Positions 23,226 through 48,642 of a stretch of 64,000 bases of DNA are shown here, piece by piece; position 1 is the first letter of the stretch, and each line of letters starts with the position of its first letter. Origin of the DNA: Roseobacter denitrificans OCh 114 (lineage in GTDB: Bacteria > Pseudomonadota > Alphaproteobacteria > Rhodobacterales > Rhodobacteraceae); contig NC_008209.1 of NCBI RefSeq assembly GCF_000014045.1, positions 829,001 to 893,000 of the forward strand, given 5' to 3'. Under the pieces are notes generated by a model. It searched no databases. It was not told the DNA's origin and was given only the letters and a program-made list of their open reading frames with translations. The translations under genes and the position numbers were made by a program.

Positions 23226-24121
23226 GCGACCTTGCGCTGACCCTGCTACGCCCCTGGTGGCTTCTGGGGCTGCCTGTCTTGATCGGCGTCGGCTGGTGGA
23301 TGTATACGCGGCGCGGCGGGCTGGGTGATTGGCAAAAGGCGACTGATCCGGCACTGCTGCGGGCCATGATGGCGCTGGACCGGGTGGACAACAGCGCCAG
23401 CCGCGCGCCGCTTCTGGCGATGCTGTCCGCGGTTGGTGTGACGCTGCTGGCGCTGTCCGGACCGGCGGTGGAACGGCGCGACGCGCTGTCCTTTCGCAAT
23501 CTTGATGGGGTGCTTTTTGTCGTCGATACCTCGGCCAGCGTGACCGAAAATGCGCGCTGGCCCCAGATGCTGACCATGGGGCGGTTTGGTATCGCGGCAT
23601 TGGGCACACGTCCCGGCGGGTTGATCGTTTTTGGCGGTGACGCCTATGTCGCATCCGACATGACGCTCGATCATCTGCAATTGGGTCAGACGTTGTCGCT
23701 GCTGGATGCGCAGACGGTGCCGGACCCCGGCTCGCGCCCGGAACGCGGTCTTGCGATGGCGCTGGATGTGCTGCGCGAGGCTGACGTGATCGCGGGGGAT
23801 GTGGTTTTGTTGACCGATGGCGCTGGTCTGGGGTCTGAAACACTGCAAGTGGCAGCGCAGATCGCCGCGCAGGGCGCGCGCCTGTCGCTGGTGTCGCTGG
23901 ACGCACCGTCGCCTGCCTTTGCGACCCATGCGACGGCGGGAAAGGGCACGGTCTTTACCCTCGCAGAGACGGATGCGTTCTCGGCGTGGATGGCCGAAAG
24001 CGCCCGCACCCGGCTGGAAGCGCAGAATTTTCCGCTGCTGTTCTGGAAAGACATGGGCCGCTATTTGCTGGTTCTGGCGCTGTTGCCACTGCTGTTGCTG
24101 TTTCGCAGGCAGGTCGCATGA
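23222..24121 (+). CDS. Second membrane-anchored VWA protein (BatB/MxaL-like)
   Basis: A 299-residue protein. Membrane segments near residues 8-25 and 62-78, a VWA domain with MIDAS-type DTSASVTEN and VLLTDGAGLGSET, and a C-terminal span (LLVLALLPLLLLF). ATG at 23222 overlaps the preceding stop, behind GGAGGGAGCTGAC. It is the partner of the first VWA protein, which matches the C/L (or BatA/BatB) pair of this operon type. Periplasmic exposure of the VWA domain is predicted from the span order. The exact client protein is inferred from context. Confidence 0.8.
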   Translation: MSDLALTLLRPWWLLGLPVLIGVGWWMYTRRGGLGDWQKATDPALLRAMMALDRVDNSASRAPLLAMLSAVGVTLLALSGPAVERRDALSFRNLDGVLFVVDTSASVTENARWPQMLTMGRFGIAALGTRPGGLIVFGGDAYVASDMTLDHLQLGQTLSLLDAQTVPDPGSRPERGLAMALDVLREADVIAGDVVLLTDGAGLGSETLQVAAQIAAQGARLSLVSLDAPSPAFATHATAGKGTVFTLAETDAFSAWMAESARTRLEAQNFPLLFWKDMGRYLLVLALLPLLLLFRRQVA

Positions 24122-30332: not shown

Positions 30333-30992
30333 ATGTTTAGATTCCCAGCCATCCTATTTGCGATGTTTCTGGCCACAGGAATGGCGGTTGCCGCCCCCGT
30401 GGACGGCGAAAAAACCTATGACATGCTGTTCAAGAACGGCACCTTGGACGAGATTGATCGCGCATCTGCCCTTGTCTATCGCCGCGAAGTCACGAATGCG
30501 CTCAAACCCGAAGCCGGCGCGCGCGACACAGGCGATGTGACCCTGTCATTCCGTGAGGGGGACAAGGACGTCGCGATGCTGAAATTCTGGCAGGACGACA
30601 AACATCGTGCTTTGGGTATCTTTCCGGCCAGTGTCGGGAACCCGATGATCATGTATTTTTATGAAACCGTCGTGCGGGACATGGCCGAGGCGGCAGGCGG
30701 CAGCCCGTATTACATCCGCAACAGGGTGAAGGAAGCGTTGATCCAACCATCCGATATCATCGAAGGCGAAGCGGTTGTTGATGGTGCAACGGTGCCGACC
30801 CGGACGATCCGGCTCTATCCTTTTGCGGACGATCCCAATGTTGACCGGATGCGCGGATTTGGTGATCTGGAGTTACGGGTCACCATGTCTGATGCCGTGC
30901 CCGGCTGGTACATGACCCTCGTCGCCGAAGCGTCGGAAGGGGCGGTCTATCGCTCTGAATTGTCGTTCCTGCGGCTGGACGAAGCGCAATGA
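30333..30992 (+). CDS. Exported protein of unknown function
   Basis: A 219-residue protein with a signal peptide (MFRFPAILFAMFLATGMAVA) and a mature part rich in beta strands (VTLSFREGDKDVAMLKFWQDD, FGDLELRVTMSDAVPGWYM). I recognise no domain. AGGAGG is placed 8 nt before the ATG. It follows the hybrid kinase by 33 bp and overlaps the next small gene. Its pairing with a second exported protein inside the methanol oxidation island suggests a periplasmic accessory role. No Cys, haem or metal motif is visible. Confidence 0.7.
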   Translation: MFRFPAILFAMFLATGMAVAAPVDGEKTYDMLFKNGTLDEIDRASALVYRREVTNALKPEAGARDTGDVTLSFREGDKDVAMLKFWQDDKHRALGIFPASVGNPMIMYFYETVVRDMAEAAGGSPYYIRNRVKEALIQPSDIIEGEAVVDGATVPTRTIRLYPFADDPNVDRMRGFGDLELRVTMSDAVPGWYMTLVAEASEGAVYRSELSFLRLDEAQ

Positions 30993-31336
30993 AGGGTTGG
31001 GTGCTGGCACTTGCGCTGAGCGTGCCGACGGCAGCAATATCGCAGACCGTGGCCGAACAGTTGAACGATTATCCGACGGCTGCACGCGCGGATTATGTCT
31101 TTGCCTGTATGGTGACGAACGGGCAGACCCGTGAAATGCTGGACCGCTGTGCCTGTTCAATCGACGAGATCGCTTCCATTCTGTCCTACGAACAGTATCT
31201 GGAGGCTGAAACGGTCCTGTCCATGCGGCGTGTCGGGGGGGAGCGTATGTCGTTTTTCCGCAGCGCTGCCATGGCCGAGAATATGGTCGCCGATCTACGC
31301 CGCGCACAGGCAGAAGCAGAAGTGATCTGCTTTTAA
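30989..31336 (+). CDS. Small exported Cys-containing protein of unknown function
   Basis: A 115-residue protein with a signal peptide (MKGWVLALALSVPTAAISQ). The ~95-residue mature part is helical with four Cys (FACMVTNG, DRCACSID, VICF at the end) that could form two disulfides in the periplasm. The ATG overlaps the upstream stop (ATGA at 30989). A strong terminator follows, so it ends the transcript. No family is recognised; the Cys spacing (C-x17-C-x-C) is not a haem motif. Confidence 0.68.
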   Translation: MKGWVLALALSVPTAAISQTVAEQLNDYPTAARADYVFACMVTNGQTREMLDRCACSIDEIASILSYEQYLEAETVLSMRRVGGERMSFFRSAAMAENMVADLRRAQAEAEVICF

Positions 31337-31415: not shown

Positions 31416-32228
31416 TCAGCCGCTCACGGATTTCGGCAGGATCTTTTCAAATTCATTACCATCCGTATCCGTGGCTTTCACGGTCAGGGCAGTGGAGCCG
31501 TTGTCATTATAGGCAAAGCGGAACACCGGGTTCTCCGAAATCGAAATACCCCCGTCCATGGTGAACAACAATTCGTCGTCCTGCCACACTTCGATATGAT
31601 CAATGAAATGGGCGGGAATGAATAGCTGTGTGATCTGATCGCGCTGCAGACCGGAGTAGTTCGGATGGCGGATCATGATCTGCGCCTCGCGACGGGGTGT
31701 CGACATTTGCGCGCCACTGTCAAAGGTCCGCAGTTTCATCTTGCCCATGCCAGCCAGCGCAATCTCGGGGTCCTTGGTGGCAGGGGCCGAGCATCCGCCG
31801 GAGGCTTTGACAAAGCGGCCTGCCATATGCAACCCGTCAGGCGTCTGCGCGATCACACGCACGTTGGAGTATTGATTGACGCGCACACGCATCTCGAAAT
31901 CCAGCAAGCCCATGGCAGGTGTAAACCCGAACACTGCAGCGATGGGGGCCGGGTTTTCGTCAATCACAACGGTGGCGGTGCTGATCGGGGCGCTGCCCTC
32001 AACCTGGCGCAGAATGATTGGCACGGTTGCGGCATCATGCGCGCGGAAGGGTGCTTCGATTGTCAAAACGTCGTCGGCAGAGGCCAGCGGCGCATCCCCC
32101 ACAACGTCGTATCGCAGTTCCTCCCAGGTCTCGCCCGGTAACAGTGGATTGCGCACTGTGTCCGAGGCCCATGCCGTGCTTGATACCAATGCGGCAACAG
32201 CGGCCAGTGTGATGAATTTAGAAGCCAT
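31416..32228 (-). CDS. Quinoprotein dehydrogenase-associated SoxYZ-like carrier 1
   Basis: A 270-residue periplasmic protein: signal peptide (FITLAAVAALVSSTAWA), a SoxY-like domain (about 30-145) ending in SGGCSAPA with a single conserved Cys (C146), and a SoxZ-like domain (about 165-265, IRHPNYSGLQRDQITQLFIPAHFI...GGISISENPVFRFAY). In Sox systems SoxY carries sulfur intermediates on a terminal Cys; in this fused family near PQQ dehydrogenases the carried group is unknown. ATG at 32228 has GGAGGA at 7 nt; the frame upstream is not used. A paralog lies at 40504-41316. Confidence 0.85.
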   Translation of the reverse strand: MASKFITLAAVAALVSSTAWASDTVRNPLLPGETWEELRYDVVGDAPLASADDVLTIEAPFRAHDAATVPIILRQVEGSAPISTATVVIDENPAPIAAVFGFTPAMGLLDFEMRVRVNQYSNVRVIAQTPDGLHMAGRFVKASGGCSAPATKDPEIALAGMGKMKLRTFDSGAQMSTPRREAQIMIRHPNYSGLQRDQITQLFIPAHFIDHIEVWQDDELLFTMDGGISISENPVFRFAYNDNGSTALTVKATDTDGNEFEKILPKSVSG

Positions 32229-32351
32229 ACCATTCTCCTCCAGCATGGGAATTTGCAGTTTATGGCACGAATCGCCCAAAAAAGACACATATACCTAAGG
32301 GGGCGTGGGTAACGGTGTCGTGTTTGGCTACACCTGTGTCGGGAGGATGCC

Positions 32352-33395
32352 ATGTTTGAAGCGATCATAACCCTGTGTTTGAGCCTGAGCGACGGGCCGT
32401 GTCGTGACCATCTGTTACCGGGTTATGAGGCGCAAACGCAGGCGGCCTGTCAGGTGGCCCTGTCCGACAATCCGCCCGATCTACGCGTTTTCACGGGCTT
32501 GCAAGCGCAGGGCATCGCAACCTGTCAGCCGATGGGCGAAACGCTGAGCATGACAGAGGTCGCGCCCGGCGTTTTTGTCCATGTCGGCCGCATAGAAGAG
32601 CCAAACGCATCGAACCGGGGTGACGTCAGCAACATGGGGTTCATCATCGGTGAAACGAGCGTCGCGGTCATTGATGCCGGCAGCGCGCGCTGGATCGGCG
32701 AGGCACTTTGGCGCGCCATTCGCACGCGCACAGACAAACCCGTGAGCCATGCGATCGTCACGCATATGCATCCGGATCATGCTCTGGGTGTCGCGTTGTT
32801 TTCCGAGGCGGGCGCGGCAGTGGTCGGTCACACCGGGTTGCCGCGCGCGCTGGCAGACCGGCAGGCCAACTATCTGGAGAGCCTGACGTCTCTGATTGGG
32901 GCGGAGGCGCTGCTGGGCACGCGGGCACCCGAAGTCGACATCGCGGTAACAGATCAGTTGCAGATTGATCTGGGCGCGCGGCCCCTGACCATGCAGGCCT
33001 GGCCGGTGGCGCACACCGGGAATGACCTCACGGTCTGGGACACCGAGACGGGAACGTTTTTTGCCGGCGATCTGATATTCGACCGGCACTTGCCTGCTCT
33101 GGATGGCCGATTGACGGGGTGGCGTGCGGTGCTGCGCGCGTTGCAGGGCTTGGATATTGAACGTGTCGTGCCGGGGCATGGTGCCGCCGCGCTGGACTGG
33201 CCTCTGGGGTCAGAGCCGATGGCGCGGTATCTGTCGGTCTTGGAAAAGGACACCCGCGCCGCGGTCGAGGCGGGTACGCGGCTGGGCACGGCAGTTGAGG
33301 AAATAGCGCAGAGCGAACGCAGCCTGTGGCAGCTTTTTGACGCCTATAATCCGCGCAATGCCACCGTGGCCTTCACGGAACTGGAATGGGAATGA
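32352..33395 (+). CDS. Quinoprotein relay system zinc metallohydrolase (metallo-beta-lactamase fold)
   Basis: A 347-residue protein. A hydrophobic, Cys-containing N-terminus (about 1-60) is followed by an MBL domain with H138-x-H140-x-D142-H143 (THMHPDHALG), a third His in AHTGND, Asp in FFAGDLIF and the final His in VPGHGAAAL: a complete dinuclear zinc site. Members of this family occur beside SoxYZ-like carriers and PQQ dehydrogenases, hence the name. Related MBL enzymes (SoxH, glyoxalase II, persulfide dioxygenase) cleave thioesters or sulfur compounds. It is divergent from the SoxYZ-like gene. The substrate is not known. Confidence 0.82.
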   Translation: MFEAIITLCLSLSDGPCRDHLLPGYEAQTQAACQVALSDNPPDLRVFTGLQAQGIATCQPMGETLSMTEVAPGVFVHVGRIEEPNASNRGDVSNMGFIIGETSVAVIDAGSARWIGEALWRAIRTRTDKPVSHAIVTHMHPDHALGVALFSEAGAAVVGHTGLPRALADRQANYLESLTSLIGAEALLGTRAPEVDIAVTDQLQIDLGARPLTMQAWPVAHTGNDLTVWDTETGTFFAGDLIFDRHLPALDGRLTGWRAVLRALQGLDIERVVPGHGAAALDWPLGSEPMARYLSVLEKDTRAAVEAGTRLGTAVEEIAQSERSLWQLFDAYNPRNATVAFTELEWE

Positions 33396-33405
33396 CCCGC
33401 TTTGT

Positions 33406-34029
33406 CTAACCCTGATCAACCACGGCAGCACTGAGCATCTGGCCGATTGAAAACAGACGCCGTTCCAGCAGGGTGGGCGTCTCACACAGATAGGCGATGT
33501 TGCGTTGGCGGTCGGTGTAGATGATCTGATCCCAATCGAGCCTCTCTTCCAGCATGTCCACCCTGTCGAAATCTGGGTTGTCCGCGACAAGTATTGAATC
33601 CATCTCCGCGCGGTTGGCATCAATTTGTTCGGCAAGCGCAATCTGGCTGAGGGAAAAATCCTCGATGCCAGTGATGATTCGCGCGCGGCGCTTCGACAGC
33701 GTATTGAATACCGATTCGAAAACGAGCCCAAGCGCTTCGGCATCCCCGTCATAGGTGGCTGCGAATGCATCCACGCGCGGCTGAAGTGTTTCAAGTTCAA
33801 CGCGTCGCAGCGACAGATACCCGGCCAATTCGGTCACATCCGCGCGCAGCGCGTCATTGTCGTCAGCCAGTTCTGAATTGACCGGGTGAGGCCACATCAA
33901 GCCCAAAGACAGCGTTGCTACCTTGCGTTGTACGCAGGGCCATGTTGGATCAGAAAAGTCTGCCGCCTGCGCAGGTGCGCCCACCGCGACCAGCGCCAGC
34001 GTCAGGCAAAGAGGTTTGATCATCGACAT
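33406..34029 (-). CDS. Exported protein of unknown function
   Basis: A 207-residue protein with a signal peptide (MSMIKPLCLTLALVAVGAPAQA) and a mainly helical mature part (DDNDALRADVTELAGYLSLRRVELETL, about residues 60-85, may be a coiled coil). There are two Cys, WPCVQRKV near the mature N-terminus and YLCETP near the end. ATG at 34029 has GGAG at 7 nt. It converges with the MBL gene (11-bp gap) and is divergent from the formaldehyde dehydrogenase gene. I recognise no family; the island context suggests a periplasmic accessory. Confidence 0.68.
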   Translation of the reverse strand: MSMIKPLCLTLALVAVGAPAQAADFSDPTWPCVQRKVATLSLGLMWPHPVNSELADDNDALRADVTELAGYLSLRRVELETLQPRVDAFAATYDGDAEALGLVFESVFNTLSKRRARIITGIEDFSLSQIALAEQIDANRAEMDSILVADNPDFDRVDMLEERLDWDQIIYTDRQRNIAYLCETPTLLERRLFSIGQMLSAAVVDQG

Positions 34030-34191
34030 GCGGTATCTCCGTAACGAGGTTTGTACTATGGCCAAGCATCCCTTGGCTGTCCAGCGCCCCCAATACCCAC
34101 CATTGTCTTAGTTGTTCTGAAGCTTGCTCGGCCCGCATACTCTGGTGGAGTACGGTAGCATGCCAATGTGCTGCACCTTTGGGAGACGATT

Positions 34192-35307
<1,116 letters not shown>

Positions 35308-35315
35308 GAGCAGAG

Positions 35316-36140
35316 ATGGAGCTGATATCAGAAAACCGGAGTTTTGGCGGCAGCCAGCAGGTCTTCAAGCACCCGTCGAACACGTGCGGCTGCGAGATGA
35401 CATTCGCGGCCTACCTGCCGCCTCAGGCGCAGGATGGACCTGTCCCGGTTTTGTGGTATCTCAGCGGTCTGACCTGCACCCATGAAAACGCGATGACCAA
35501 GGGCGGTTTTCAGGAACACGCGGCCAAAAACGGTTTGGCGGTCATCTTTCCGGATACGTCGCCGCGCGGTGCGGGTGTCAGTGATGACGAGGCCTATGAC
35601 CTTGGCCAGGGGGCCGGGTTTTATGTCAATGCGACGCGGGACCCCTGGAAGACCAACTATCGCATGTATGATTACATCGTGAGCGAATTGCGCTCGATCA
35701 TCGTGGATAATCTGCCGGTGCAGGACAAACACGGCATCACCGGCCATTCCATGGGCGGGCATGGTGCGATCACGATCGCCATTCGCAACGCAGGCCTGTT
35801 TGATTCCCTGTCTGCATTTGCGCCCATCGCCAATCCGACGCAGTCTGACTGGGGCCGCAAACAACTCAGCGCCTATCTGGGGGACGACGAAAGCAACTGG
35901 GCGGATCATGATGCCACGCTCTTGCTGGAAGAACACGGCTGGAAGGGTGATTTGCTGGTGGATCAGGGGGCTGCCGATCAGTTCCTCGACCTGCTCAAAC
36001 CCGAAGCGCTGGCAGACATGATGGCGCGTCGGCGTCAACCCGGACAGCTCCGGATGCAAAGCGGCTATGATCATTCGTATTTCTTCGTGAACAGTTTTGC
36101 GCGGGATCATGTATCATGGCACGCGGAGCGACTACACTGA
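35316..36140 (+). CDS. fghA: S-formylglutathione hydrolase
   Basis: A 274-residue alpha/beta hydrolase (esterase D family) that splits S-formylglutathione to formate and glutathione. Nucleophile Ser in GHSMGGHGA, Asp in DQGAADQFL, His in YDHSYFF: the full triad in the right order. WYLSGLTCTHENAMTKGGFQ is the family fingerprint. I chose the ATG at 35316; a TTG at 35304 overlaps the dehydrogenase stop and is possible. It follows frmA directly, so C1 oxidation proceeds stepwise in one transcript, then the cytochrome and xoxF genes. Confidence 0.93.
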   Translation: MELISENRSFGGSQQVFKHPSNTCGCEMTFAAYLPPQAQDGPVPVLWYLSGLTCTHENAMTKGGFQEHAAKNGLAVIFPDTSPRGAGVSDDEAYDLGQGAGFYVNATRDPWKTNYRMYDYIVSELRSIIVDNLPVQDKHGITGHSMGGHGAITIAIRNAGLFDSLSAFAPIANPTQSDWGRKQLSAYLGDDESNWADHDATLLLEEHGWKGDLLVDQGAADQFLDLLKPEALADMMARRRQPGQLRMQSGYDHSYFFVNSFARDHVSWHAERLH

Positions 36141-36175
36141 CTGTTCGACCAAGGTGAAACCAAGGAAGGTACTAT

Positions 36176-36577
36176 ATGCTAAAGAAATTTCTATCCGTCG
36201 CCTGCCTCATGGCACTGCCTGCCGCTGGCTTTGCGGATGGGCATATCACGGGCGATGCAGCGGCTGGTGAAAAGGTATTTCGCAAGTGCAAAGCCTGTCA
36301 TGCCGTTGGTGAGGGCGCCGAGAACAAGATTGGCCCCGCCCTGAATGGCATCGTTGACGCCGCTGTCGCTGGCAATCCCGATTTCAAATATTCGGATGTG
36401 CTGATGGCGATGGCAGCCGAGGGCAAGACATGGACACCTGAGGAGCTGTCCGGCTTCCTTGAAAAACCACGCAACTACGCGAAGGGCACCAAGATGGCCT
36501 TTGCCGGATTGCGCAAGGAAGAAGACCGCATGAACGTAATCGCATATCTTGCGTCTTTCCCGGCAGGGGGGTCGTAA
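36176..36577 (+). CDS. Class I cytochrome c (c2/c550 type)
   Basis: A 133-residue periplasmic electron carrier: signal peptide (residues 1-20, cleavage near GFADG), haem attachment C38-K-A-C41-H42, NKIGPALNG loop and axial Met107 in GTKMAFAGL. The fold is that of cytochrome c2/c550. Positioned 35 bp after fghA and 125 bp before xoxF, it may pass electrons from XoxG toward the terminal oxidase. It could equally serve general respiration. Confidence 0.88.
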   Translation: MLKKFLSVACLMALPAAGFADGHITGDAAAGEKVFRKCKACHAVGEGAENKIGPALNGIVDAAVAGNPDFKYSDVLMAMAAEGKTWTPEELSGFLEKPRNYAKGTKMAFAGLRKEEDRMNVIAYLASFPAGGS

Positions 36578-36587
36578 GACAACGAAT

Positions 36588-36622
36588 TTCCTGTGGCGTG
36601 GGACAGACCTACTCCACAGGAA
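36588..36622. other. Hairpin after the cytochrome gene
   Basis: TTCCTGTGG (36588-36596) pairs with CCACAGGAA (36614-36622), a 9-bp stem with a 17-nt loop and no T-run. It may end or process the upstream transcript before xoxF. Confidence 0.45.
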
Positions 36623-36702
36623 TAACCCGGTACCCTGTCCGTTCCTTGGTCAGGTGTATCATTCCAGCGGCAATCCTGCCGCATTCTAGGGAGGTAATTT
36701 AG

Positions 36703-38505
36703 ATGAGAAAGCTATCGCTTTTGACTTCTGGGATCGCTCTTTGCGCGGCCAGTATGGCTTTTGCAAATGACGACCTGGTCACGCAAATGAGTGATTCCAA
36801 GCAATGGGCCATTCAGACGGGTGACTACAAAAACCAACGCTACTCTGCACTTGACCAGATCAACGAAGAAAACGTCGGCGATCTGCAGGTTGCATGGACA
36901 TTCTCGACGGGTGTTCTGCGGGGCCATGAGGGTTCGCCTCTGGTGATTGGTGATGTGATGTACGTGCACACGCCATTTCCAAACATCGTCTACGCGCTGG
37001 ACCTTGCCAACGAGGGCAAGATCATCTGGAAGTATGAGCCAAAGCAGGACCCGGACGTCATTCCGGTGATGTGCTGTGACACCGTTTATCGCGGTGTGGC
37101 TTATGCCGATAACAAGATCTTCCTGCATCAGGCGGATACAACCGTTGTCGCGCTCAACGCTGAAACCGGCGCTGTTGAATGGTCCGTCGTAAATGGTGAT
37201 CCTGCCATCGGCGAGACGAACACCGCAACCGTTCTGCCCGTCAAGGACAAGGTCATCGTCGGGATTTCCGGTGGTGAATTCGGTGTGCGCGGCCATGTGA
37301 CAGCGTACAACATGGAAACGGGTGAAAAGGAATGGCGTGCCTATTCCGTCGGTCCGGATGATGAGATGCTGGTTGATCCGGTGAACACGACGCATCTGGG
37401 CAAACCCGTTGGTGAAAACTCCAGCCTCAACAGCTGGGAAGGCGACCAGTGGATGATCGGTGGCGGCACCACATGGGGCTGGTATGCGGCTGATCTTGAA
37501 GAGAACCTGATGTACTACGGTACAGGGAACCCTTCGACATGGAACCCGGCCCAGCGTCCGGGCGACAACCGCTGGACCATGACGGTCATGGCGCGTGACA
37601 TCGACACCGGTGTTGCAAGGTGGCTCTACCAGATGACCCCGCACGACGAGTGGGATTATGACGGCGTCAACGAGAACATTCTCACCGAGCAGGAAATCGA
37701 CGGTGTAGAGCGCAAGCTGTTGACCCGGTTCGACCGCAACGGTCTGGCCTATACGATGGACCGTGTGACGGGCGAATTGCTCGTGGCTGAAAAGTTCGAC
37801 CCGGTCGTGAACTGGACCTCCGGTGTTGACATGGATCCCGAAAGCGAAACCTACGGTCGTCCGCAGGTTGTGGCTCAGTACTCAACGGCGCAAAACGGTG
37901 AAGACGTGAACTCCACCGGTATCTGCCCTGCGGCTCTGGGCACCAAAGACCAGCAGCCAGCGGCCTATTCGCCGCGCACCGAAGTGTTCTACGTGCCGAC
38001 AAACCACGTCTGCATGGACTATGAGCCCTTCCGCGTGTCCTACACCGCTGGTCAGCCCTACGTCGGTGCAACCCTGTCGATGTACCCGGCACCTGACAGC
38101 CATGGCGGCATGGGTAACTTCATCGCCTGGGACAACATCAACGGTGAGATCCTGTGGTCCATCCCCGAGAAGTTCTCGGTCTGGTCCGGTGCTCTCGCAA
38201 CTGCCGGTGACGTTGTGTTCTACGGAACGCTTGAAGGTCACCTGAAAGCGGTGAGCGCCAATACTGGTGAAGAGTTGTACCGCTTCAAGACACCATCGGG
38301 CATCATCGGTAACGTCATGACCTATGAGCATGATGGCCGTCAGTACGTCGGTATCCTCTCCGGTGTCGGTGGTTGGGCCGGTATTGGTCTGGCGGCTGGT
38401 CTGACAAACCCGAACGACGGTCTGGGTGCTGTGGGCGGTTATGCAGCCCTGAGCGACTATACCGCGCTGGGTGGACAGCTGACTGTCTTCGCTCTGCCGA
38501 ACTAA
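36703..38505 (+). CDS. xoxF: XoxF, lanthanide-dependent PQQ methanol dehydrogenase
   Basis: A 600-residue periplasmic quinoprotein with a signal peptide (cleavage near AFAND). It oxidises methanol (and often formaldehyde or other alcohols) with PQQ. The vicinal disulfide Cys pair is C124-C125; metal ligands are E192 (GGEFGVRG), N276 (GTGNPSTWN) and catalytic D318, with D320 two residues on (HDEWDYDG), the extra Asp that marks lanthanide-binding XoxF and is Ala in calcium-dependent MxaF. Eight propeller blades with Trp motifs are evident. GGGAGG lies before the ATG, below a small 5' hairpin (36667-36682). Electrons go to XoxG, encoded next. Confidence 0.97.
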
Positions 38506-38532
38506 GCGGTGGCTTGATCCAGCATGAACGAA

Positions 38533-38556
38533 TGGCGCGGCCGAACGGTCGCGCCA
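38533..38556 (+). other. Hairpin between xoxF and xoxG
   Basis: TGGCGCGGCC and GGTCGCGCCA (38533-38542 / 38547-38556) form a 10-bp stem with one G-T pair and a GAAC loop, without a T-run. It may stabilise xoxF message and reduce read-through, giving more enzyme than cytochrome. Confidence 0.55.
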
Positions 38557-38613
38557 CTTCAAAAACAAACGGGCGACAGTCAGTGGCTGGCCCAGTGATC
38601 ACGGGTAAATCTT

Positions 38614-39123
38614 ATGAAAACCACACACCGTATTTTTGCACTCTGCCTTGCCGCAGGTCTGCCAATGACCGCCCTGGCTGAGGAGCCAGTGGATCCGGCA
38701 CTTTACGAAGCGGCCTACAGTGAGGATGGCCGCTACTTCAACGCTGATGATATCCCGACCTACAATATCACCGAGGATGGCACAGTCGACTGGCTGACGT
38801 TTTCGGGCTTTCGCCGCTACCACGCGGAATGCCACGTCTGTCATGGCCCGGATGGCGAAGGATCGACCTATGCGCCCGCTGTCAAGAATGCAGCCGTGAC
38901 CCTCGGATATGAAGGGTTTTTCGATGTGGTCGTGAATGGTCGCCAGAACGGAAATTCGGTAATGCCGCATTTCGGGGAAAACCGGAATGTCATGTGTTAT
39001 CTGGACGACATATATGTCTATCTGAAGGCACGTGGAACCGACGCGCTGCCGCGCGGACGTCCGGCCAAGAAAGAAGCCAAATCGGATGCTATTCGTGAGG
39101 ACGAAAATGCCTGCATGGGCTGA
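38614..39123 (+). CDS. xoxG: XoxG, c-type cytochrome acceptor for XoxF
   Basis: A 169-residue periplasmic cytochrome: signal peptide (MKTTHRIFALCLAAGLPMTALA), a single haem site C73-H-V-C76-H77 (ECHVCHGPDGEG) and a probable axial Met in NSVMPHFGEN. The sequence belongs to the group annotated as methanol-metabolism-related c-type cytochromes. A charged C-terminal tail (RGRPAKKEAKSDAIREDENACMG) with a lone Cys is unusual. It overlaps xoxJ by 17 bp. It takes electrons from PQQH2 in XoxF. Confidence 0.92.
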   Translation: MKTTHRIFALCLAAGLPMTALAEEPVDPALYEAAYSEDGRYFNADDIPTYNITEDGTVDWLTFSGFRRYHAECHVCHGPDGEGSTYAPAVKNAAVTLGYEGFFDVVVNGRQNGNSVMPHFGENRNVMCYLDDIYVYLKARGTDALPRGRPAKKEAKSDAIREDENACMG

Positions 39124-39952
39124 AAAATACCAGCGCCTGGTTGTGACCCTTCTCCTTGGGTTCTGCCTTGCGGGGTCTGCAGGCGCACAAACGTCTGATT
39201 TGGTTTCAAGCAAAGCCTTACGCGTTTGTGCGGACCCCGCAAACTACCCGATGTCTACCCGTGATGAAGACGGCTATGAAAACAAGCTGGCTGAACTTGT
39301 CGGCGCCAAGCTCGAACTTCCCGTGCAGTATACCTGGTTTCCGATGGCAACCGGGTTTGTGCGCAACACATTGAACGCCAAACGCTGCGATCTGATCATC
39401 GGCTATGCGCAGGGCCATGAGCTGGTGTTGAACACCAACCACTATTTCACCTCCGTATATACCATCATCGTGCCACAGGACAGCGATCTGGCTGATGTGA
39501 AATCGCTTGCTGATCCAGCCCTCAAAGGGCGTAAACTGGGCATTATCGCAGGCACACCGCCGTCGGCGCATCTTGCGCGGCACGGGCTGATTGCAAAGGC
39601 GAAAGCTTACAATCTCGTGGTGGACCGACGTGTCGAGAACCCGGCGATTGACATGCTTGACGACCTCAGCGCAGGCGAAATTGACGCCGCCGTTTTGTGG
39701 GGCCCATTGGGCGGGCCGCTGGTCAAATCCAGCTATCCCGGTTTCAAAGTGATCCCGCTGATCAGCGAGCAATCACCGCCGCGTCTTTTCTTTCGGATCA
39801 CGATGGGCGTTCGTCTGGGCGAAAAGGTCTGGCAGCGTAACCTCAATTCGCTGATCCGCCGCAATCAGGACGAAATCAACAGCTTGCTCGTGGATGCTGG
39901 TGTGCCGCTTGTGACCGATCTTGGCACTGAGGTGTTGGAGATCTCGAATTGA
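39107..39952 (+). CDS. xoxJ: XoxJ, quinoprotein-associated periplasmic binding protein
   Basis: A 281-residue protein with a signal peptide (YQRLVVTLLLGFCLAGSAGA) and the type II periplasmic-binding fold: LRVCADPANYPMSTRDEDGYENKL, then AKRCDLIIGYAQGHE, and LKGRKLGIIAGTPPSAHLARHG. XoxJ/MxaJ proteins are not transport receptors; they are thought to help activate the dehydrogenase. ATG at 39107 has GAGGA at 5 nt and lies inside the end of xoxG. Its stop overlaps the next gene's TTG. The xoxF-xoxG-xoxJ order is standard. Confidence 0.9.
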   Translation: MPAWAEKYQRLVVTLLLGFCLAGSAGAQTSDLVSSKALRVCADPANYPMSTRDEDGYENKLAELVGAKLELPVQYTWFPMATGFVRNTLNAKRCDLIIGYAQGHELVLNTNHYFTSVYTIIVPQDSDLADVKSLADPALKGRKLGIIAGTPPSAHLARHGLIAKAKAYNLVVDRRVENPAIDMLDDLSAGEIDAAVLWGPLGGPLVKSSYPGFKVIPLISEQSPPRLFFRITMGVRLGEKVWQRNLNSLIRRNQDEINSLLVDAGVPLVTDLGTEVLEISN

Positions 39953-40503
39953 TCAAAATCCTGCTGGCAGCGGCATTTCTCACGGTGGCGCAGCACGCAG
40001 GGGCACAAACCGTGCCCGAGCCTTCAGATTACCGAATGGATCACTACCGCAGCCCCGTTCCTGCGACCCTGCAGGGCGGTACGGTTGTCGGTCCGGAAGA
40101 GGCGCATGCCTTATGGGCGTCGGGGCAGGCCGCCTTTATTGATGTCATGCCGCAACCGCCCAAACCGGCAAACCTGCCGGAGGGAACCATCTGGCGGGAC
40201 AAGCCGCGCATCTCGATCCCCGGTGCGATCTGGGTGCCGAATGTGGGCTATGGCGCGATCGCCGATGTGACGGCTGCCTATTTTCGCGATGCGCTCAACG
40301 CAGCCACGCAAGGGCGTGCGGATCACCCCATCGTGCTGTTTTGTCTTGAAGACTGCTGGATGAGCTGGAACGCCGCCCGTCGTGCGCTGGAGTGGGGGTA
40401 TACATCGGTTTACTGGTTCCCTGAAGGCACCGACGGCTGGGGGCTTTGGGACTATCCGCTGGAGCGGATCGAGCCGCACCACGGCCAACCCCAGACGCAG
40501 TGA
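39949..40503 (+). CDS. PQQ-dependent catabolism-associated CXXCW-motif protein (rhodanese-like)
   Basis: A 184-residue exported protein with a signal peptide (cleavage near HAGAQ). The core is rhodanese-like (AAFIDVMPQPP...IPGAIWVPNVG) and the signature FCLEDCWMSWNAARRALEWGY has two Cys, C132 and C136, followed by W137; strictly read this is C-x3-C-W. Rhodaneses move sulfane sulfur, so a link with the SoxYZ-like carriers is plausible but unproven. It starts with TTG overlapping the xoxJ stop (TTGA), with GGAG at 8 nt. Confidence 0.85.
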   Translation: MIKILLAAAFLTVAQHAGAQTVPEPSDYRMDHYRSPVPATLQGGTVVGPEEAHALWASGQAAFIDVMPQPPKPANLPEGTIWRDKPRISIPGAIWVPNVGYGAIADVTAAYFRDALNAATQGRADHPIVLFCLEDCWMSWNAARRALEWGYTSVYWFPEGTDGWGLWDYPLERIEPHHGQPQTQ

Positions 40504-41316
40504 TCAAAAGCCAGGCAGGTCCTTGCGCATATGCGCGACAGTGCCGTCCGTGTCGGTCATCGTGACATCCACAGAACGCGTGCTTTGCGGTACGGCAAGA
40601 CCGAGGCGGGGATTTTCGGACAGGGATATCGACCCTGTCACATCAACATAGCCCGCACCGTCAAGGTCGATTTCGACGTTTTCCACATAGCGCATCGGGA
40701 TGAACAGCAGTGAAATCTGATCCCGCTGCATGCCGGAATGTGAGGGGTGCGATATATCCACGTCCATCCGCCCAAGACGCGCAGACAGGTTTTCAAGCTT
40801 GCCGCCGCCCACGCCGGGCAGGGTGCCTGCCATCTCGATGCTCATCTCGCCAAGTGTTGCGAGCGCCAGTTCCGGGTCGGTCCCAGGCGGTGCGGCACAG
40901 GCACCCGTACCCGAGGTTTTGACGAAGGTTTCTGAAACGAACAGCCGCCCGTCCGTCGTTTCTGCGATCACATGCAGGGGGGTTGGACCGTTCACGCGCA
41001 TCGTGATGTCGAAGAAAAAGCCCGGTTGCGGCGTCTCAAGGTCGAACACTGCAGAGACAGGCATCGGGTTTTCGTCCAGCACGACCGTCACCTTTGTCAA
41101 CTGCGTGCCGACCGGTGCCTTGATCTGTGCGGCGAGGTCCGTGCGCGCGTCGTCCGGGGTTCTGTAAGGAGCGTCGATGGCGATGACGCCTGTCCCATCA
41201 AGCATGAAGCGTTCGCCATAAAGCTGGGCCTTCACGGCTTCCCATGCTTCGTTGCTGGCCAGCGCAGGCAGCGCCACACAGCACATCAGCGCTGCTGTCA
41301 ATCCAATACGTTTCAT
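40504..41316 (-). CDS. Quinoprotein dehydrogenase-associated SoxYZ-like carrier 2
   Basis: A 270-residue paralog of the carrier at 31416-32228: signal peptide (MKRIGLTAALMCCVALPALA), SoxY-like part ending at FVKTSGTGACAAPPG with one Cys (C140), and SoxZ-like part (ISHPSHSGMQRDQISLLFIPMRYV...SISLSENPRL). The carrier Cys is followed by a Pro-containing linker as in paralog 1 but lacks the Gly-Gly directly before it. It stops immediately next to the end of the convergent CXXCW gene and overlaps the start-side neighbour (beta-propeller) by 4 bp, so it belongs to a four-gene minus-strand operon. Confidence 0.85.
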   Translation of the reverse strand: MKRIGLTAALMCCVALPALASNEAWEAVKAQLYGERFMLDGTGVIAIDAPYRTPDDARTDLAAQIKAPVGTQLTKVTVVLDENPMPVSAVFDLETPQPGFFFDITMRVNGPTPLHVIAETTDGRLFVSETFVKTSGTGACAAPPGTDPELALATLGEMSIEMAGTLPGVGGGKLENLSARLGRMDVDISHPSHSGMQRDQISLLFIPMRYVENVEIDLDGAGYVDVTGSISLSENPRLGLAVPQSTRSVDVTMTDTDGTVAHMRKDLPGF

Positions 41317-42254
41317 TCAATCCCTCCCAGAATAAATGTCCCGAAGGCCCGTGGGCCGTCACAGGTTTCGATGTGTTGTACCACAGAAAGTGCATCCGCG
41401 TCGAATACTGTCACAGTATTCTCAAACCAGTTGGCGACGACGATGCGCTGACCATCGGGGGTGGTGTCGATCCCCTCGGGATATTCGCCGGTCTCAAGTG
41501 TCGCGATCTTACGCAGCGTACCGAGGTCAATGACGCTGAGCGTGTCGGCGTATTGATTTGTCACAAAGGCACGACCCTGCGCAAAAGCCACGCCGTAGGG
41601 GCGCGCGCCGACCGCGACCGTTGCCAATGCTGCGCCATTCTCAGGGTCAATCACGCTGACGTCATTACTGCCCACATTGCCCACAAACAGGCGACCATCA
41701 GGTGCAAAGCGCAGGCCAAAAGGGCGGGTGCCCACATCCACGCGGTGCAAAAGATCAAGCGTTGCGGCATCGAAAACAGAAACCTGATCGGCGTCCCTGT
41801 CCGCCGAGGCCAGCCAACGCCCGTCATCTGACAGGGCCAACCCGGCGGGGGCCGCGCCGACCGTCAACTGTGCCTGTTCCGACAGGTCCATCGCATCCAG
41901 CACCCAGATGCGGGCGTTGTACCAATCGGAGACGAACAGCCGATTACGCCGGGGGTCATGGGCAACACCCATCGGACCCCCATCCTGAACGACTTGCGCA
42001 AGGACTTTGCCCGTCAGCCGATCATGTCGCCTGACCGTTTTGCTGTCCGCGGCAACCGTAAAGGCGGCGTCCGTGTCCACCGCCACTCCGGCTGGTTTGC
42101 CCGGCACGGCCCACAGGTGGTGCTGCACGCCTTTCGACAGGTCGAGAACGCTCAGCGCGTCCCCGTTCTGGCATGTGACATAGGCGAGATCACTTGCCGC
42201 CACCGGGGTCGCGACAAGCATTAACGCGAGGATCAGTTTACGAGTCAGGCGCAC
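41313..42254 (-). CDS. YVTN-type beta-propeller protein
   Basis: A 313-residue periplasmic protein (signal peptide LILALMLVATPVAAS) built of about seven ~40-residue blades with the repeated pattern VxxHDPRRNRLFVSDW / GLALSDDGRWLASAD / FVTNQYADTLSVIDL. Propellers of this type accompany PQQ-dependent catabolism. Likely GTG start at 42254, overlapping the MxaD-like gene by 17 bp; its stop overlaps the SoxYZ-like start. It may bind a partner dehydrogenase or carrier; no catalytic residues are evident. A second propeller lies at 44613-45584. Confidence 0.78.
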   Translation of the reverse strand: MRLTRKLILALMLVATPVAASDLAYVTCQNGDALSVLDLSKGVQHHLWAVPGKPAGVAVDTDAAFTVAADSKTVRRHDRLTGKVLAQVVQDGGPMGVAHDPRRNRLFVSDWYNARIWVLDAMDLSEQAQLTVGAAPAGLALSDDGRWLASADRDADQVSVFDAATLDLLHRVDVGTRPFGLRFAPDGRLFVGNVGSNDVSVIDPENGAALATVAVGARPYGVAFAQGRAFVTNQYADTLSVIDLGTLRKIATLETGEYPEGIDTTPDGQRIVVANWFENTVTVFDADALSVVQHIETCDGPRAFGTFILGGIE

Positions 42255-42783
42255 CGAAGGCCGTCGTCAAAGCATCCAGACCCGCCTGATAAACGGCGGA
42301 GACAGCGGCAATTGCCGCCTCATCGTTCAGGTCCTCGGGCGGATCGTTGTTGGGATAGCCTCGGTAAAATGCGCCGCGCCATTCAATCACCGACCCGCCT
42401 CCATCGCGGGCTTTGACCGTCAGGTGGGACGAATAATTGGTGACAGGCAGCACCTCGACCAGAACATCGGTGATGCGGTAGGAATAGCTCATCTTTTCAT
42501 CGCTGTACTTGTACAGGATTTCAGAAATCGTAGGCCCGTCGGCGGCCCCCAGAGACAGCACGCGGGTGGCGTCTATTTCGTTGCCATTCTCGCCCGTGCT
42601 GCTGTGCACTGCCGGATGCCACGACATGTCCTGAAAATCACCGATCCGTGCCCAGACCTCTGCCGGTTCAGCCGCCACCTCGGTGGTCAATGTGATCTTC
42701 TGGCGCGTCGGGCCATGGGCAAGCGCCACACCCGGCACGAGCGTGACCGCCAGAGCCATTGACATAAAACTGCGTTTTTTCAT
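42238..42783 (-). CDS. MxaD-like SRPBCC (polyketide-cyclase fold) exported protein
   Basis: A 181-residue protein: signal peptide (RSFMSMALAVTLVPGVALA) and a START/SRPBCC domain (TTEVAAEPAEVWARIGDFQDMSWHP, then VIEWRGAFYRGY). MxaD in methylotrophs stimulates electron transfer between methanol dehydrogenase and its cytochrome, and this protein sits in the xox island, so a similar role is likely. GGAGG lies 4 nt before the ATG at 42783; an ATG at 42786 overlapping the upstream stop is the alternative. Confidence 0.78.
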   Translation of the reverse strand: MKKRSFMSMALAVTLVPGVALAHGPTRQKITLTTEVAAEPAEVWARIGDFQDMSWHPAVHSSTGENGNEIDATRVLSLGAADGPTISEILYKYSDEKMSYSYRITDVLVEVLPVTNYSSHLTVKARDGGGSVIEWRGAFYRGYPNNDPPEDLNDEAAIAAVSAVYQAGLDALTTAFGAPDS

Positions 42784-43265
42784 CATTCCTCCGCTACAAA
42801 AAATCGGTTTTTCAGGATGTACCGCATCCCGCGCTGCCAGCTGTCGTCGGTGTTGCCCCTGATATCCACCACACCGCCTTTCACCATCTCGCCGGTGTCT
42901 GCCGCGCGTAGTTGCAGGTTCATGGCCAGGATGAGATCCGAGACTTTCTGAACCTCCCCGACCAGCGAATAATCCGCGCCAAGGTCCGCCGCGATGCGGG
43001 TGTCGCACCCATAGCATTTGGCCACATTGGCGACCCGGTCGATCTGATCACGCGCCGGTTCGATATCGACGAGCACGTAGCCCTCTTGGGTAAATCGGTC
43101 GGCCACCATTGCTTCGAGTGTGGCAATCCGTGCCAGTTCGGCAGGATCCGTCCCGTCGTTCGTTGTTTGCAAGGATGTATCCAGCAGGGTCAGCCCAAAG
43201 AACGCCACTTTTTCCTGTGCCTGAGCACCGGTGGCCGCCAGAAGAGCAAGAATTATCAGTCGCAT
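42783..43265 (-). CDS. DUF3280/DUF2380-like exported protein
   Basis: A 160-residue protein with a short signal peptide (MRLIILALLAATGAQA). The mature segment KVAFFGLTLLDTS...RIATLEAMVADRFTQEGYVLVD...YSLVGEVQKVSDLILAMNLQLRAADTGEMV matches the DUF2380/DUF3280 fold, related to periplasmic CsgG/TolB-N-like domains. A KCYGCD pair of Cys (2 apart) may be redox- or metal-active. First gene of the four-gene minus operon, divergent from the binding-protein gene. ATG at 43265 preferred over GTG at 43271. Its biochemical role is unknown. Confidence 0.72.
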   Translation of the reverse strand: MRLIILALLAATGAQAQEKVAFFGLTLLDTSLQTTNDGTDPAELARIATLEAMVADRFTQEGYVLVDIEPARDQIDRVANVAKCYGCDTRIAADLGADYSLVGEVQKVSDLILAMNLQLRAADTGEMVKGGVVDIRGNTDDSWQRGMRYILKNRFFVAEE

Positions 43266-46070: not shown

Positions 46071-46322
46071 ATGAAAAAGCTTTTTGCAGTGACCGCCGCA
46101 GTCCTGATAAGCGCACCGGCATTCGCCAGTGAGGGGCCGGATGCCGCGACCGTCGAGAAAATCGAAGCGATGCTGGCGGCCATGGAATGCCAGATGGACC
46201 CGGCTGACATCGAAGTCGAAGACGATGGCTATGAGCTTGACGATGTGATCTGCAAGGGGGGTGATCAGTTCGACATTACGTTGGACAAGGACCTCAACGA
46301 AACCGGTCGCCGTGCGGAATAG
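46071..46322 (+). CDS. Small acidic PepSY-like exported protein
   Basis: An 83-residue protein: signal peptide 1-19 (MKKLFAVTAAVLISAPAFA), then one PepSY-like unit with IEVEDDGYELDD (about residues 47-58) and FDITLDKDLNETG. The 64-residue mature part has about 20 Asp/Glu and only five Lys/Arg, with Cys at 40 and 61. PepSY proteins are small periplasmic domains; one, lanpepsy of Methylobacillus flagellatus, has been reported to bind lanthanides. Here it sits between the XoxF accessory genes and an ABC transporter, overlapping the transporter's first gene, so metal binding is an attractive but untested idea. Confidence 0.75.
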   Translation: MKKLFAVTAAVLISAPAFASEGPDAATVEKIEAMLAAMECQMDPADIEVEDDGYELDDVICKGGDQFDITLDKDLNETGRRAE

Positions 46323-47289
46323 GTTTCGCCTGATCGGGGCGCTTGTCTGCGCCCTTTTCGGTTTTGCAGGGCAGGTTCTCGCCGAGGACCTGCCCACTAT
46401 ACGTGCGGCGGTACTGAAAATCGGGACGGTCAATTGGGAGTTGGCGACTATCACCGACAACCAGCTCGACCGTGAGAACGGCTTTGTGCTGGAGGTTCAG
46501 CCCTTTGCGGATAACGGGGCCACGCGTATCGCGGTTGAAGGCGGCGAAGCGGATATGGCTGTCGCCGATTGGATATGGGTGGCGCGGCAGCGGGCAGCGG
46601 GCAAGGACTATGTCTTTATCCCCTATTCCAAGGCCGTGGGCGGCCTGATTGTGACTGACACCAGCACCGCCGAAACATTGCAGGACCTGCAGGGCGGCAA
46701 GATCGGCATTGCCGGGGGGCCGTTGGATAAATCATGGCTGATCCTGCAGGCCTATGCGCAACAGCAATATGGCTTTGATCTGAAGGCCGGCACAGAACAG
46801 GTTTTTGGCGCGCCGCCCCTGATTTTTAAATCCGCGCTTAATGATGACTACGCCGGGGCGATCAATTTCTGGCACTTTCTGGCCAAGGGCAAATCGGCGG
46901 GCATGAGGGAACTGATCTCCGTTCAGGAGGCGGGAGCGGCATTGGGGTTGGATACCGACACGCCCCTGTTGGGATATTACGTCAAGGAAAGTTTCCTCGC
47001 AGAGAACCCCGATATTGCGCAGTCCTTCTTTGAAGCGACGCGCGCGGCAAAGGATATGCTGGCCACGTCTGATGCCGCATGGGAGGCTGTGCGTCCCCGG
47101 ATGAACGCCAGCACGGATGCGGAATTCGAACAACTCAAGGCCGATTGGATCGCGGGCATTCCGGAACGCGGTCCGGTCGACGGGCAGGCTGCCGAAAAGA
47201 TGCTGGCGCTGATGAAAGAGCTTGGCGGTCCGGAGCTTGTCGGCCCGATGACCGCGATGCCACCCGGCCTGTTTGCAGACGTTAAATAG
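46312..47289 (+). CDS. SsuA/ThiY-type ABC transporter substrate-binding protein
   Basis: A 325-residue periplasmic receptor: signal peptide (FRLIGALVCALFGFAGQVLA) and NMT1/SsuA-like fold with KIGTVNWELATI, GGEADMAVADWIWVARQRAAGKD, LQGGKIGIAGGPLDKSWLIL. GTG start at 46312, inside the last codons of the PepSY-like gene, so it is translationally coupled. The family binds nitrate, sulfonates, taurine or thiamin precursors; given the quinoprotein neighbours a metal chelate or PQQ-related ligand is possible, but this is inference. Confidence 0.83.
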   Translation: MRNRFRLIGALVCALFGFAGQVLAEDLPTIRAAVLKIGTVNWELATITDNQLDRENGFVLEVQPFADNGATRIAVEGGEADMAVADWIWVARQRAAGKDYVFIPYSKAVGGLIVTDTSTAETLQDLQGGKIGIAGGPLDKSWLILQAYAQQQYGFDLKAGTEQVFGAPPLIFKSALNDDYAGAINFWHFLAKGKSAGMRELISVQEAGAALGLDTDTPLLGYYVKESFLAENPDIAQSFFEATRAAKDMLATSDAAWEAVRPRMNASTDAEFEQLKADWIAGIPERGPVDGQAAEKMLALMKELGGPELVGPMTAMPPGLFADVK

Positions 47290-47296
47290 CGCGGTG

Positions 47297-48046
47297 ATGC
47301 ACAGCGCGCGGCTCACTCCTTTTCTGTCACTGGCCGGGTTACTGGGCATGTGGGTGGTCGCTGCGATGCTGACACAGGATGCGCAAATCCTGCCAACGCC
47401 GTGGCAACTTCTGCCACCTCTGCGTCAGGAATTGGCCTCGGGCGAGTTGTGGACGCATCTGAGCGCGACGATCGTGCGGGTCATCTGGGCCTTTGCGCTG
47501 GCGATGTCGCTGGGCACCATTCTGGGTCTGATCATGGGGCGGTCGGCTGCGGTCAACCGCTGGCTTGATCCGTGGCTTGTCGTCTTCCTGAATCTGCCCG
47601 CGCTTGTTCTGATTGTGCTGTGTTATCTTTGGATCGGCCTGACAGAGGCGGCGGCCATCACTGCCGTCACATTGAACAAGGTGCCCAATGTGGCCGTTGT
47701 CATCCGCGAAGGTGCGCGCGCGCTCGACCCGGATCTTGACGCGCTCGGCAAAGTCTATCGGATGTCGTGGTGGACCCGCATGCGCCACATCGTCTTTCCG
47801 CAGCTTGCCCCCTTTGTCGCTGCTGCCTCGCGCTCGGGTCTTGCGGTGATCTGGAAGATCGTTCTGGTGGTCGAGTTTCTGGGCCGCTCGTCGGGGATCG
47901 GGTTTCAGATCCACCTCTATTTCCAGCTCTTCGATGTTGCGATGGTGCTGGTTTACGCGTTCTCCTTCATCACTGTGATGCTGCTGGTGGAGTGGATTTT
48001 CCTGCAACCGTTCGAGCGTCATGTGGCGCGCTGGCGCAGCGCATGA
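47297..48046 (+). CDS. SsuC-type ABC transporter permease
   Basis: A 249-residue inner-membrane protein with about six spans and the BPD_transp_1 coupling loop EGARALDPDLDALGKVYRMSWWTRMRHIVFPQ split near residues 144-175. Start ATG at 47297 (GTG at 47294 also possible), 7 bp after the binding-protein stop. Its stop overlaps the ATPase start (ATGA at 48043). It belongs to the SsuABC/TauABC class of importers. Confidence 0.85.
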   Translation: MHSARLTPFLSLAGLLGMWVVAAMLTQDAQILPTPWQLLPPLRQELASGELWTHLSATIVRVIWAFALAMSLGTILGLIMGRSAAVNRWLDPWLVVFLNLPALVLIVLCYLWIGLTEAAAITAVTLNKVPNVAVVIREGARALDPDLDALGKVYRMSWWTRMRHIVFPQLAPFVAAASRSGLAVIWKIVLVVEFLGRSSGIGFQIHLYFQLFDVAMVLVYAFSFITVMLLVEWIFLQPFERHVARWRSA

Positions 48047-48642
48047 TCAGCGTCAGTATCAGATCCAAGGTCTATGGGGACAAACCCGTTCTGGGTCAGA
48101 TAGACTTTGATGTTGCCCGTGGTGAAACACTGGCGCTGGTCGGGCCCTCCGGGATCGGCAAATCGACCTTGCTGCGCATTTTGGCGGGGATTGATCAGAA
48201 ATTCGACGGGACGATCAAAAGCTCTGTGTCGCAGGCCATTGTATTTCAGGAACCGACCTTGCTGCTGTGGCGTTCGGTTCTGGATAACCTTTTGATCCCG
48301 CATCCGGACCTCAGCGTTGAGGACGCCCGCGCCAGTCTCGAACGGGTCGGCCTTGCGGGCAAAGACACGCTGTTCCCCGGGCAACTGTCGCTGGGCCAAC
48401 AGCGCCGATTGTCGCTGGCCCGTGCCTTTGCCGGTGCGCCGGATGTGCTGATCATGGATGAACCCTTCGTCTCGCTTGATCAGAAAACCGCCGAGAGCAT
48501 GTTGCGCCTGACCGAATCGCTGATTGCGACGCATAAACCGGCGACGGTTTTTGTCACCCACGACGCCCGCGAGGCAGAGCGTCTGGCGGATCGGGTTCTG
48601 ACGCTTGAGGCGTCACCGAGCGGGGCGCAGCTTTTGCAATAA
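48043..48642 (+). CDS. SsuB-type ABC transporter ATPase, short
   Basis: A 199-residue ABC ATPase, clearly shorter than the usual 240-260: Walker A GPSGIGKST (about residue 36), Q loop VFQEPTLLLWRSV, signature LSLGQQRRLSLARAF, Walker B VLIMDEPFVSLD, switch His VTHDAREAERLADRVL. All catalytic elements remain; the reduction is in the helical and C-terminal parts. It completes the transporter with the two upstream genes. ATG overlaps the permease stop. Confidence 0.87.
   Translation: MISVSIRSKVYGDKPVLGQIDFDVARGETLALVGPSGIGKSTLLRILAGIDQKFDGTIKSSVSQAIVFQEPTLLLWRSVLDNLLIPHPDLSVEDARASLERVGLAGKDTLFPGQLSLGQQRRLSLARAFAGAPDVLIMDEPFVSLDQKTAESMLRLTESLIATHKPATVFVTHDAREAERLADRVLTLEASPSGAQLLQ

Follow-up and report, generated by a model that had tools for sequence, protein, structure and literature searches.

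A SoxYZ-like carrier, hydrolase and CxxxCW protein set at the xoxF5 locus of Roseobacter denitrificans is tied to quinoproteins in general

Genes of the xoxF island

The window analysed here is a 64,000-nucleotide stretch of the 4.33-Mb genome of Roseobacter denitrificans OCh 114 (GCF_000014045.1, contig NC_008209.1, positions 829,001 to 893,000). Around the methanol dehydrogenase gene xoxF it encodes two paralogous fused SoxYZ-like carriers, a SoxH-related hydrolase of the metallo-beta-lactamase (MBL) fold and a rhodanese-like CxxxCW protein. Families were called from NCBIfam and Pfam scores against the respective cut-offs; the four genes, located around xoxF by a first-pass annotation, all scored above their NCBIfam cut-offs (Table 1). 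They are an instance of an already catalogued quinoprotein-associated set made up of a fused SoxYZ-like carrier, a SoxH-related MBL and a CxxxCW protein. In NCBIfam, TIGR04557 is the 'quinoprotein-associated SoxYZ-like carrier' and TIGR04559 the 'quinoprotein relay system zinc metallohydrolase 2', while TIGR03865 bears the name 'PQQ-dependent catabolism CXXCW protein' (PQQ, pyrroloquinoline quinone); the quinoprotein that TIGR04557 calls for is XoxF, encoded in the same locus. A very similar gene order was found in Ruegeria sp. AD91A, where the genes are annotated with these family names and the dehydrogenase is XoxF5, and the neighbourhood was found again in most of 80 named loci, all selected by the carrier.

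Table 1. Features of the xoxF island and its flanks (window coordinates)
Feature	Position	Strand	Family evidence
Carrier 1, fused SoxYZ-like, C146 on SoxY-type arm (VKASGGCSAP)	31416..32228	-	TIGR04557 282.9 bits (cut-off 140)
Carrier 2, diverged paralogue, C140 (GTGACAAP)	40504..41316	-	TIGR04557 159.9 bits (cut-off 140)
SoxH-related MBL hydrolase, full ligand set	32352..33395	+	TIGR04559 373.5 bits (cut-off 280)
Rhodanese-like CxxxCW protein	39949..40503	+	TIGR03865 245.9 bits (cut-off 128.05); Rhodanese PF00581 22.6 bits (cut-off 22.2)
XoxF5-type methanol dehydrogenase, motif WDYDG, vicinal C124-C125	36703..38505	+	TIGR03075 747.7 bits
Unnamed secreted four-Cys helical protein tracking XoxF5	30989..31336	+	no Pfam/NCBIfam family over cut-off
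XoxG-type cytochrome	38614..39123	+	TIGR03874 250.8 bits
XoxJ-like binding protein, true start probably downstream	39032..39952	+	TIGR03871 287.4 bits
Cytochrome c	36176..36577	+	CycA c-550 model 94.1 bits, under cut-off 240; syntenic
S-(hydroxymethyl)glutathione dehydrogenase	34168..35307	+	TIGR02818 606 bits
S-formylglutathione hydrolase FghA	35304..36140	+	TIGR02821 418 bits (cut-off 281.7)
Secreted protein without Cys, adjoins four-Cys protein	30333..30992	+	no family; conserved neighbour
Conserved secreted protein, two conserved Cys (C44, C194)	33406..34065	-	no family over cut-off; conserved neighbour
Beta-propeller, 4-base same-strand overlap with carrier 2	41313..42254	-	TIGR02276 repeats
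SRPBCC protein (listed reading frame; true start probably near 42790)	42238..43017	-	PF10604 111 bits over residues 106-254; no NCBIfam match

Carriers and their conserved cysteine

Both carriers exceeded the TIGR04557 cut-off and contained both Pfam domains, SoxY fused to SoxZ; carrier 2 was 33% identical to carrier 1. The first-pass annotation had given each carrier one internal Cys, C146 and C140, and this was correct for the mature parts when residues were numbered from the ATG starts; C12 and C13 of carrier 2 fall in the signal peptide. The reading frame of carrier 1 was listed as 31416-32288, the ATG at 32228 being the likelier start, and the region 31479-32228, without the last 20 residues, represented this carrier in alignments A1 and A2 and in the structure model. 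A profile of 20 carriers matched structures of SoxY and SoxZ and put the carrier Cys in register with the GGC arm Cys of SoxY (2oxg, 4uwq). This arm is the end of the chain in SoxY and is internal in the fused carrier because SoxZ follows. The AlphaFold model of carrier 1 (pLDDT 86) matched SoxY 2ox5 with a TM score of 0.84 by target length and 0.39 by query length. The Cys was invariant in alignment A1, both paralogues included, was seen in 30/30 fused carriers that were read, and was present in 111 of the 112 carrier frames of the 80 named loci, the remaining frame being a fragment at the edge of a locus. The Sox thiosulfate carrier models TIGR04488 and TIGR04490 (cut-offs 125 and 76) were not reached by carrier 1 (47.6 and 58.5 bits) or carrier 2 (27.1 and 35.6 bits).

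Distribution among 299 genomes

Co-occurrence was determined in 299 Pseudomonadota genomes, the same genomes being searched with every family. TIGR04557 was over its cut-off in 50 genomes, and a fused carrier without an internal stop was present in 39. The other 11 were left out, their matches having internal stops or joined pieces that look like adjacent unfused SoxY-SoxZ pairs; no TIGR03075 was found in these 11 genomes at the limit used, so including them would break the rule that carriers occur with PQQ-dependent alcohol dehydrogenases (PQQ-ADHs). With that limit (E 1e-100, scoring up to four candidates in each genome), TIGR03075 PQQ-ADHs were found in 83 genomes, comprising all 39 carrier genomes and 44 of the 260 others (Fisher p 6e-26, phylogeny ignored). 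A SoxH-related MBL (E 1e-30 or better) was likewise present in 39/39 carrier genomes and adjoined the carrier in 36 (the exceptions being G148, G152 and G212); 37 other genomes also had one, every one under the cut-off, and each of the 26 genomes with TIGR04559 over its cut-off was a carrier genome. The CxxxCW family was over its cut-off in 35/39 carrier genomes and in none of the 260 others (Fisher p 2e-41, phylogeny ignored). The families thus occur together and with quinoproteins, as the first-pass annotation had anticipated, and the linkage of the set to quinoproteins is strong.

A link to XoxF in particular, which had also been suggested, was not supported. The window XoxF was used to search 80 of the 83 TIGR03075 genomes; the three uncovered genomes and the 216 without TIGR03075 were counted as lacking XoxF5. 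An XoxF of at least 61% identity was found in 30 genomes (in G242 as a gene divided between two frames), and the next class reached at most 53%. The set was present in 25 of these 30 genomes and absent from five, and 14 of the 39 carrier genomes had other PQQ-ADHs without XoxF5, ruling out an XoxF-specific relay and showing that the earlier reading was too narrow. A strict bond to lanthanide enzymes was also ruled out. An enzyme with the lanthanide motif was present in 38/39 carrier genomes; in the remaining genome, G111, the only enzymes seen were one with WDFSG and one resembling a quinohemoprotein. In the window XoxF the lanthanide-type Asp two residues after the catalytic Asp is present (WDYDG), and we take this second Asp to coordinate the lanthanide; lanthanide-dependent activity of XoxF5 is predicted from the motif.

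The set is also independent of Sox. The first-pass annotation had seen no Sox genes in the window, which stands for what was scanned; the genome does have a sox cluster on the same contig, at a distance of about 0.57 Mb, with SoxX, SoxY, SoxA, SoxB and SoxC over their cut-offs. SoxB was found in 49 of the 299 genomes, 19 of them carrier genomes, and its absence from the other 20 carrier genomes ruled out the set as a part of Sox. Among the 83 quinoprotein genomes, SoxB was commoner with the set (19/39) than without it (6/44; p 0.0007). This is only a hint, as whole families share both traits and lineage may explain it.

Hydrolase and CxxxCW protein

The MBL has a complete set of candidate ligands (H138, H140, D142, H143, H160, D240 and H276), in agreement with the first-pass annotation, and zinc-dependent hydrolysis is predicted from these residues. 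It scored 25.7 bits against hydroxyacylglutathione hydrolase and 53.2 bits against B1 beta-lactamases. The N-terminal stretch 32352-32550, ahead of the MBL domain match, carries Cys 17, 33 and 58. The cysteines of the CxxxCW protein are C132 and C136.

Four carrier genomes (G077, G251, G261 and G331) lacked the CxxxCW protein, and in 4/4 of them the carrier-linked MBLs (five loci) had degenerate ligands: LNxHPDY in four loci and THTRPEF in one G261 locus, and each of the five had GG instead of GD. By contrast, HxHxDH, the Asp and GHG were kept in 32/32 readable carrier genomes with the CxxxCW protein, a count that covers the genomes other than G148, G152 and G212. The H160 column was kept in TIGR04559-type MBLs except in L138 and, as aligned, was not kept in the TIGR04558 type. 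That there are two degenerate forms points to more than one loss, although the four genomes represent only two families. The CxxxCW protein is missing from the same four genomes whose carrier-linked MBLs are degenerate, which links this protein to the hydrolytic step. A secreted WCPIC protein followed the trio in 3/40 loci, and both of those scanned were called thioredoxins by Pfam; a thioredoxin-like gene is also described for the Methylorubrum extorquens set (PMC12997753).

Four-cysteine protein

Convergent with carrier 1 is the gene of a secreted protein of 115 residues, in which Cys 40, 54, 56 and 114 were invariant in 28/28 aligned sequences. It has at least 8000 relatives; the names among the 120 matches listed were hypothetical protein or lipoprotein only. 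Its model was all-helical (pLDDT 83), with no significant match to structures in the PDB. A profile built from carrier-adjacent loci was tested genome-wide, mostly on genomes outside the build, and detected the protein in 31 of the 299 genomes, namely 30/30 XoxF5 genomes and one of the 269 others (G278). The latter encodes an MxaF-like enzyme (51% identity) and another enzyme with the lanthanide motif. In families f1, f26, f60, f72 and f83 the protein accompanied XoxF5 and was absent from PQQ-ADH genomes without XoxF5, G278 being the sole exception. By listed coordinates, its gene was within 25 kb of xoxF in 24/30 genomes; in the other six it was farther away or on another contig. Further, it was kept in the five genomes that have XoxF5 but not the carrier set and was missing from 13 of the 14 carrier genomes without XoxF5, showing that it belongs with XoxF5 and not with the set. 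That it was a component of the set had been the first idea, drawn from synteny, and was dropped on the genome-wide distribution.

In G261, a single strand carries xoxF, xoxG, xoxJ, about 1 kb unassigned, a gene of the 30333 type, the four-Cys gene, a carrier, the propeller, the SRPBCC gene, the MBL and a second carrier. The four-Cys gene was directly upstream of xoxF in L115, L221 and L222. M. extorquens orf6/orf7, considered as possible counterparts of the four-Cys gene, instead come between xoxJ and pqqE in the numbering (PMC7391723). We give about even chances to the four-Cys protein being a dedicated XoxF5 factor that is separate from the carrier set and serves as a partner in assembly, lanthanide handling or electron transfer.

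Other genes of the region

The secreted proteins at 33406-34065 and 30333-30992 were present in 77/80 and 69/80 named loci, many of them incomplete. The beta-propeller gene adjoins a carrier in locus L132 too, and the SRPBCC protein (42238-43017) is one we take to be MxaD-like. Upstream of the island, 20044-24121 encodes a MoxR ATPase, a DUF58 protein and VWA proteins, a group resembling the mxa maturation genes. The segment 26066-30299, also upstream, encodes a LuxR-type regulator, a FIST-domain protein like NosP (354 bits, under the cut-off of 450) and a hybrid histidine kinase, which adjoined the set in 66, 66 and 70 of the 80 named loci, respectively. An NMT1-like ABC transporter (binding protein, permease and ATPase) lies at 46261-48642, and several other genomes have a homologue of its binding protein close to the four-Cys gene. 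Proteins of TIGR03863 and TIGR03866 are encoded downstream of the island. These are the families of PedA1 and PedA2, parts of a lanthanide transporter (PMC12997753); the match of name to family is our own.

Discussion

The set itself and the idea of protection from sulfur are already in print. The trio has been named in Pseudomonas putida (PP_2677, PP_2678 and PP_2666) and M. extorquens (META1p1703-1705), and roles connected with the disulfide or the cofactor, or in shielding PQQ from sulfur nucleophiles, have been proposed (PMC12997753). That set (TIGR04557/TIGR04559/TIGR03865) has the same families or descriptions and the same PQQ-ADH association as the one described here, which differs in having two paralogous carriers and a Rhodobacteraceae-type synteny with XoxF5, AdhI and FghA. 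SoxYZ fusions of the SoxYZ-S2/S4 kind likewise combine a fused carrier with a soxH gene and a PQQ-ADH or xoxF neighbour, and a role in carbon metabolism has been suggested for them; they were described for lucinid and related symbionts, in the text available to us without a test of distribution against quinoproteins (PMC11237559). At xoxF5, soxH has been named in strain La 6 and Rhodobacter sphaeroides, and adhI, soxH, xoxF5, xoxG and xoxJ stand together in the Roseobacter-group and R. sphaeroides cluster as they do here; the carriers and the CxxxCW protein are not named for that cluster in the available portion, including the legend of Fig. 2 (PMC5934484). No mention of the set occurs in the available portions of PMC7188995, PMC9291206 and PMC12542740. 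In the open-licence literature we found only proposals, and no assigned chemistry for the set, in line with the first-pass annotation; the distribution test, the coupled loss of the CxxxCW protein and the MBL site, and the four-Cys protein were not found there.

Our tentative explanation is that the set is a conditional thiol/sulfur-adduct module that serves quinoproteins in protection or repair and is not a catalytic step of methanol oxidation. The carrier Cys is placed where SoxY binds its substrate, and across the 299 genomes fused carriers occurred only with PQQ-ADHs. The periplasmic carrier Cys would take a covalent adduct. This would most probably be a sulfur species, whether sulfite, thiosulfate or the sulfur of a persulfide, which if left free would attack PQQ or the dehydrogenase's vicinal disulfide. 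The MBL would free the carrier through hydrolysis, and the CxxxCW protein may take over the leftover sulfur or reset the thiol, helped in some lineages by a thioredoxin-like protein. An obligatory step of methanol oxidation is not supported by the published genetics: transposon mutants of the P. putida trio had minimal phenotypes, albeit without rare earths (PMC12997753), and none of META1p1703-1705 is listed among the genes hit at least four times in the M. extorquens XoxF1 selection (PMC7391723, Table 1).

Several observations weigh against the protective module. At least 20 of the 44 PQQ-ADH genomes without the set have a lanthanide-motif enzyme (not every ADH being read). The carrier persists in the four genomes with a degenerate MBL, all from two families, indicating that neither the hydrolase site nor the CxxxCW protein is indispensable. 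G261, G077 and G331 encode more MBLs elsewhere, which might substitute for the degenerate ones; the one read (G331) is also degenerate. The absence of SoxB from 20/39 carrier genomes makes the source of the sulfur less certain. Further, lutC went unhit in the XoxF1 selection though its deletion slows growth, so that the lack of a transposon hit is weak evidence (PMC7391723).

We consider it unlikely that the set relays aldehyde or formyl groups. Here the carrier Cys would bind formaldehyde or acetaldehyde as a hemithioacetal, the quinoprotein would oxidise it to a thioester and the MBL would hydrolyse this, as a periplasmic counterpart of the glutathione pathway. The genes do neighbour XoxF, AdhI and FghA, the set occurs with both methanol- and ethanol-type enzymes, and the MBL has a complete site with a distant likeness to hydroxyacylglutathione hydrolase, although B1 beta-lactamases scored higher. 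However, a glutathione route already exists in the cell, and the relay leaves no role for the CxxxCW protein, whose absence coincides with the degenerate MBL site. It is mainly this coincidence that leads us to prefer thiol/sulfur chemistry; of the two adducts offered by the first-pass annotation, sulfur fits better and a formyl or aldehyde group less well.

That the set instead introduces or restores the vicinal disulfide in the dehydrogenase, or keeps the cofactor stable, as proposed in PMC12997753, appears quite improbable. The vicinal C124-C125 of this XoxF, the Cys pair in nearly all ADHs read and the thioredoxin-like neighbour in the 3/40 loci would suit such a function. However, the lanthanide-motif ADHs of 20 genomes without the set all have the CC pair, and the homologues are missing from the XoxF1 selection list in Table 1 of PMC7391723. 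A diverged thiosulfate-oxidising Sox branch is very doubtful: carrier and MBL are truly homologous to SoxYZ and SoxH and the host has Sox, but the arm is internal instead of a C-terminal GGCGG, and besides the SoxB-less carrier genomes 30/49 SoxB genomes have no fused carrier. The set shares carrier fold, Cys position and MBL with the Sox system and differs from it in its fused chain, in having no SoxXA, SoxB or SoxCD in the locus, and in an MBL that keeps HxHxDH where SoxH of the host cluster (L004 18781-19731) does not.

The set is a conserved quinoprotein accessory, in which the absence of the CxxxCW protein together with a degenerate MBL site offers a testable coupling. The four-Cys protein is the freshest lead; if it is a dedicated XoxF5 factor, it would supply a part so far missing from the picture of lanthanide methanol oxidation.

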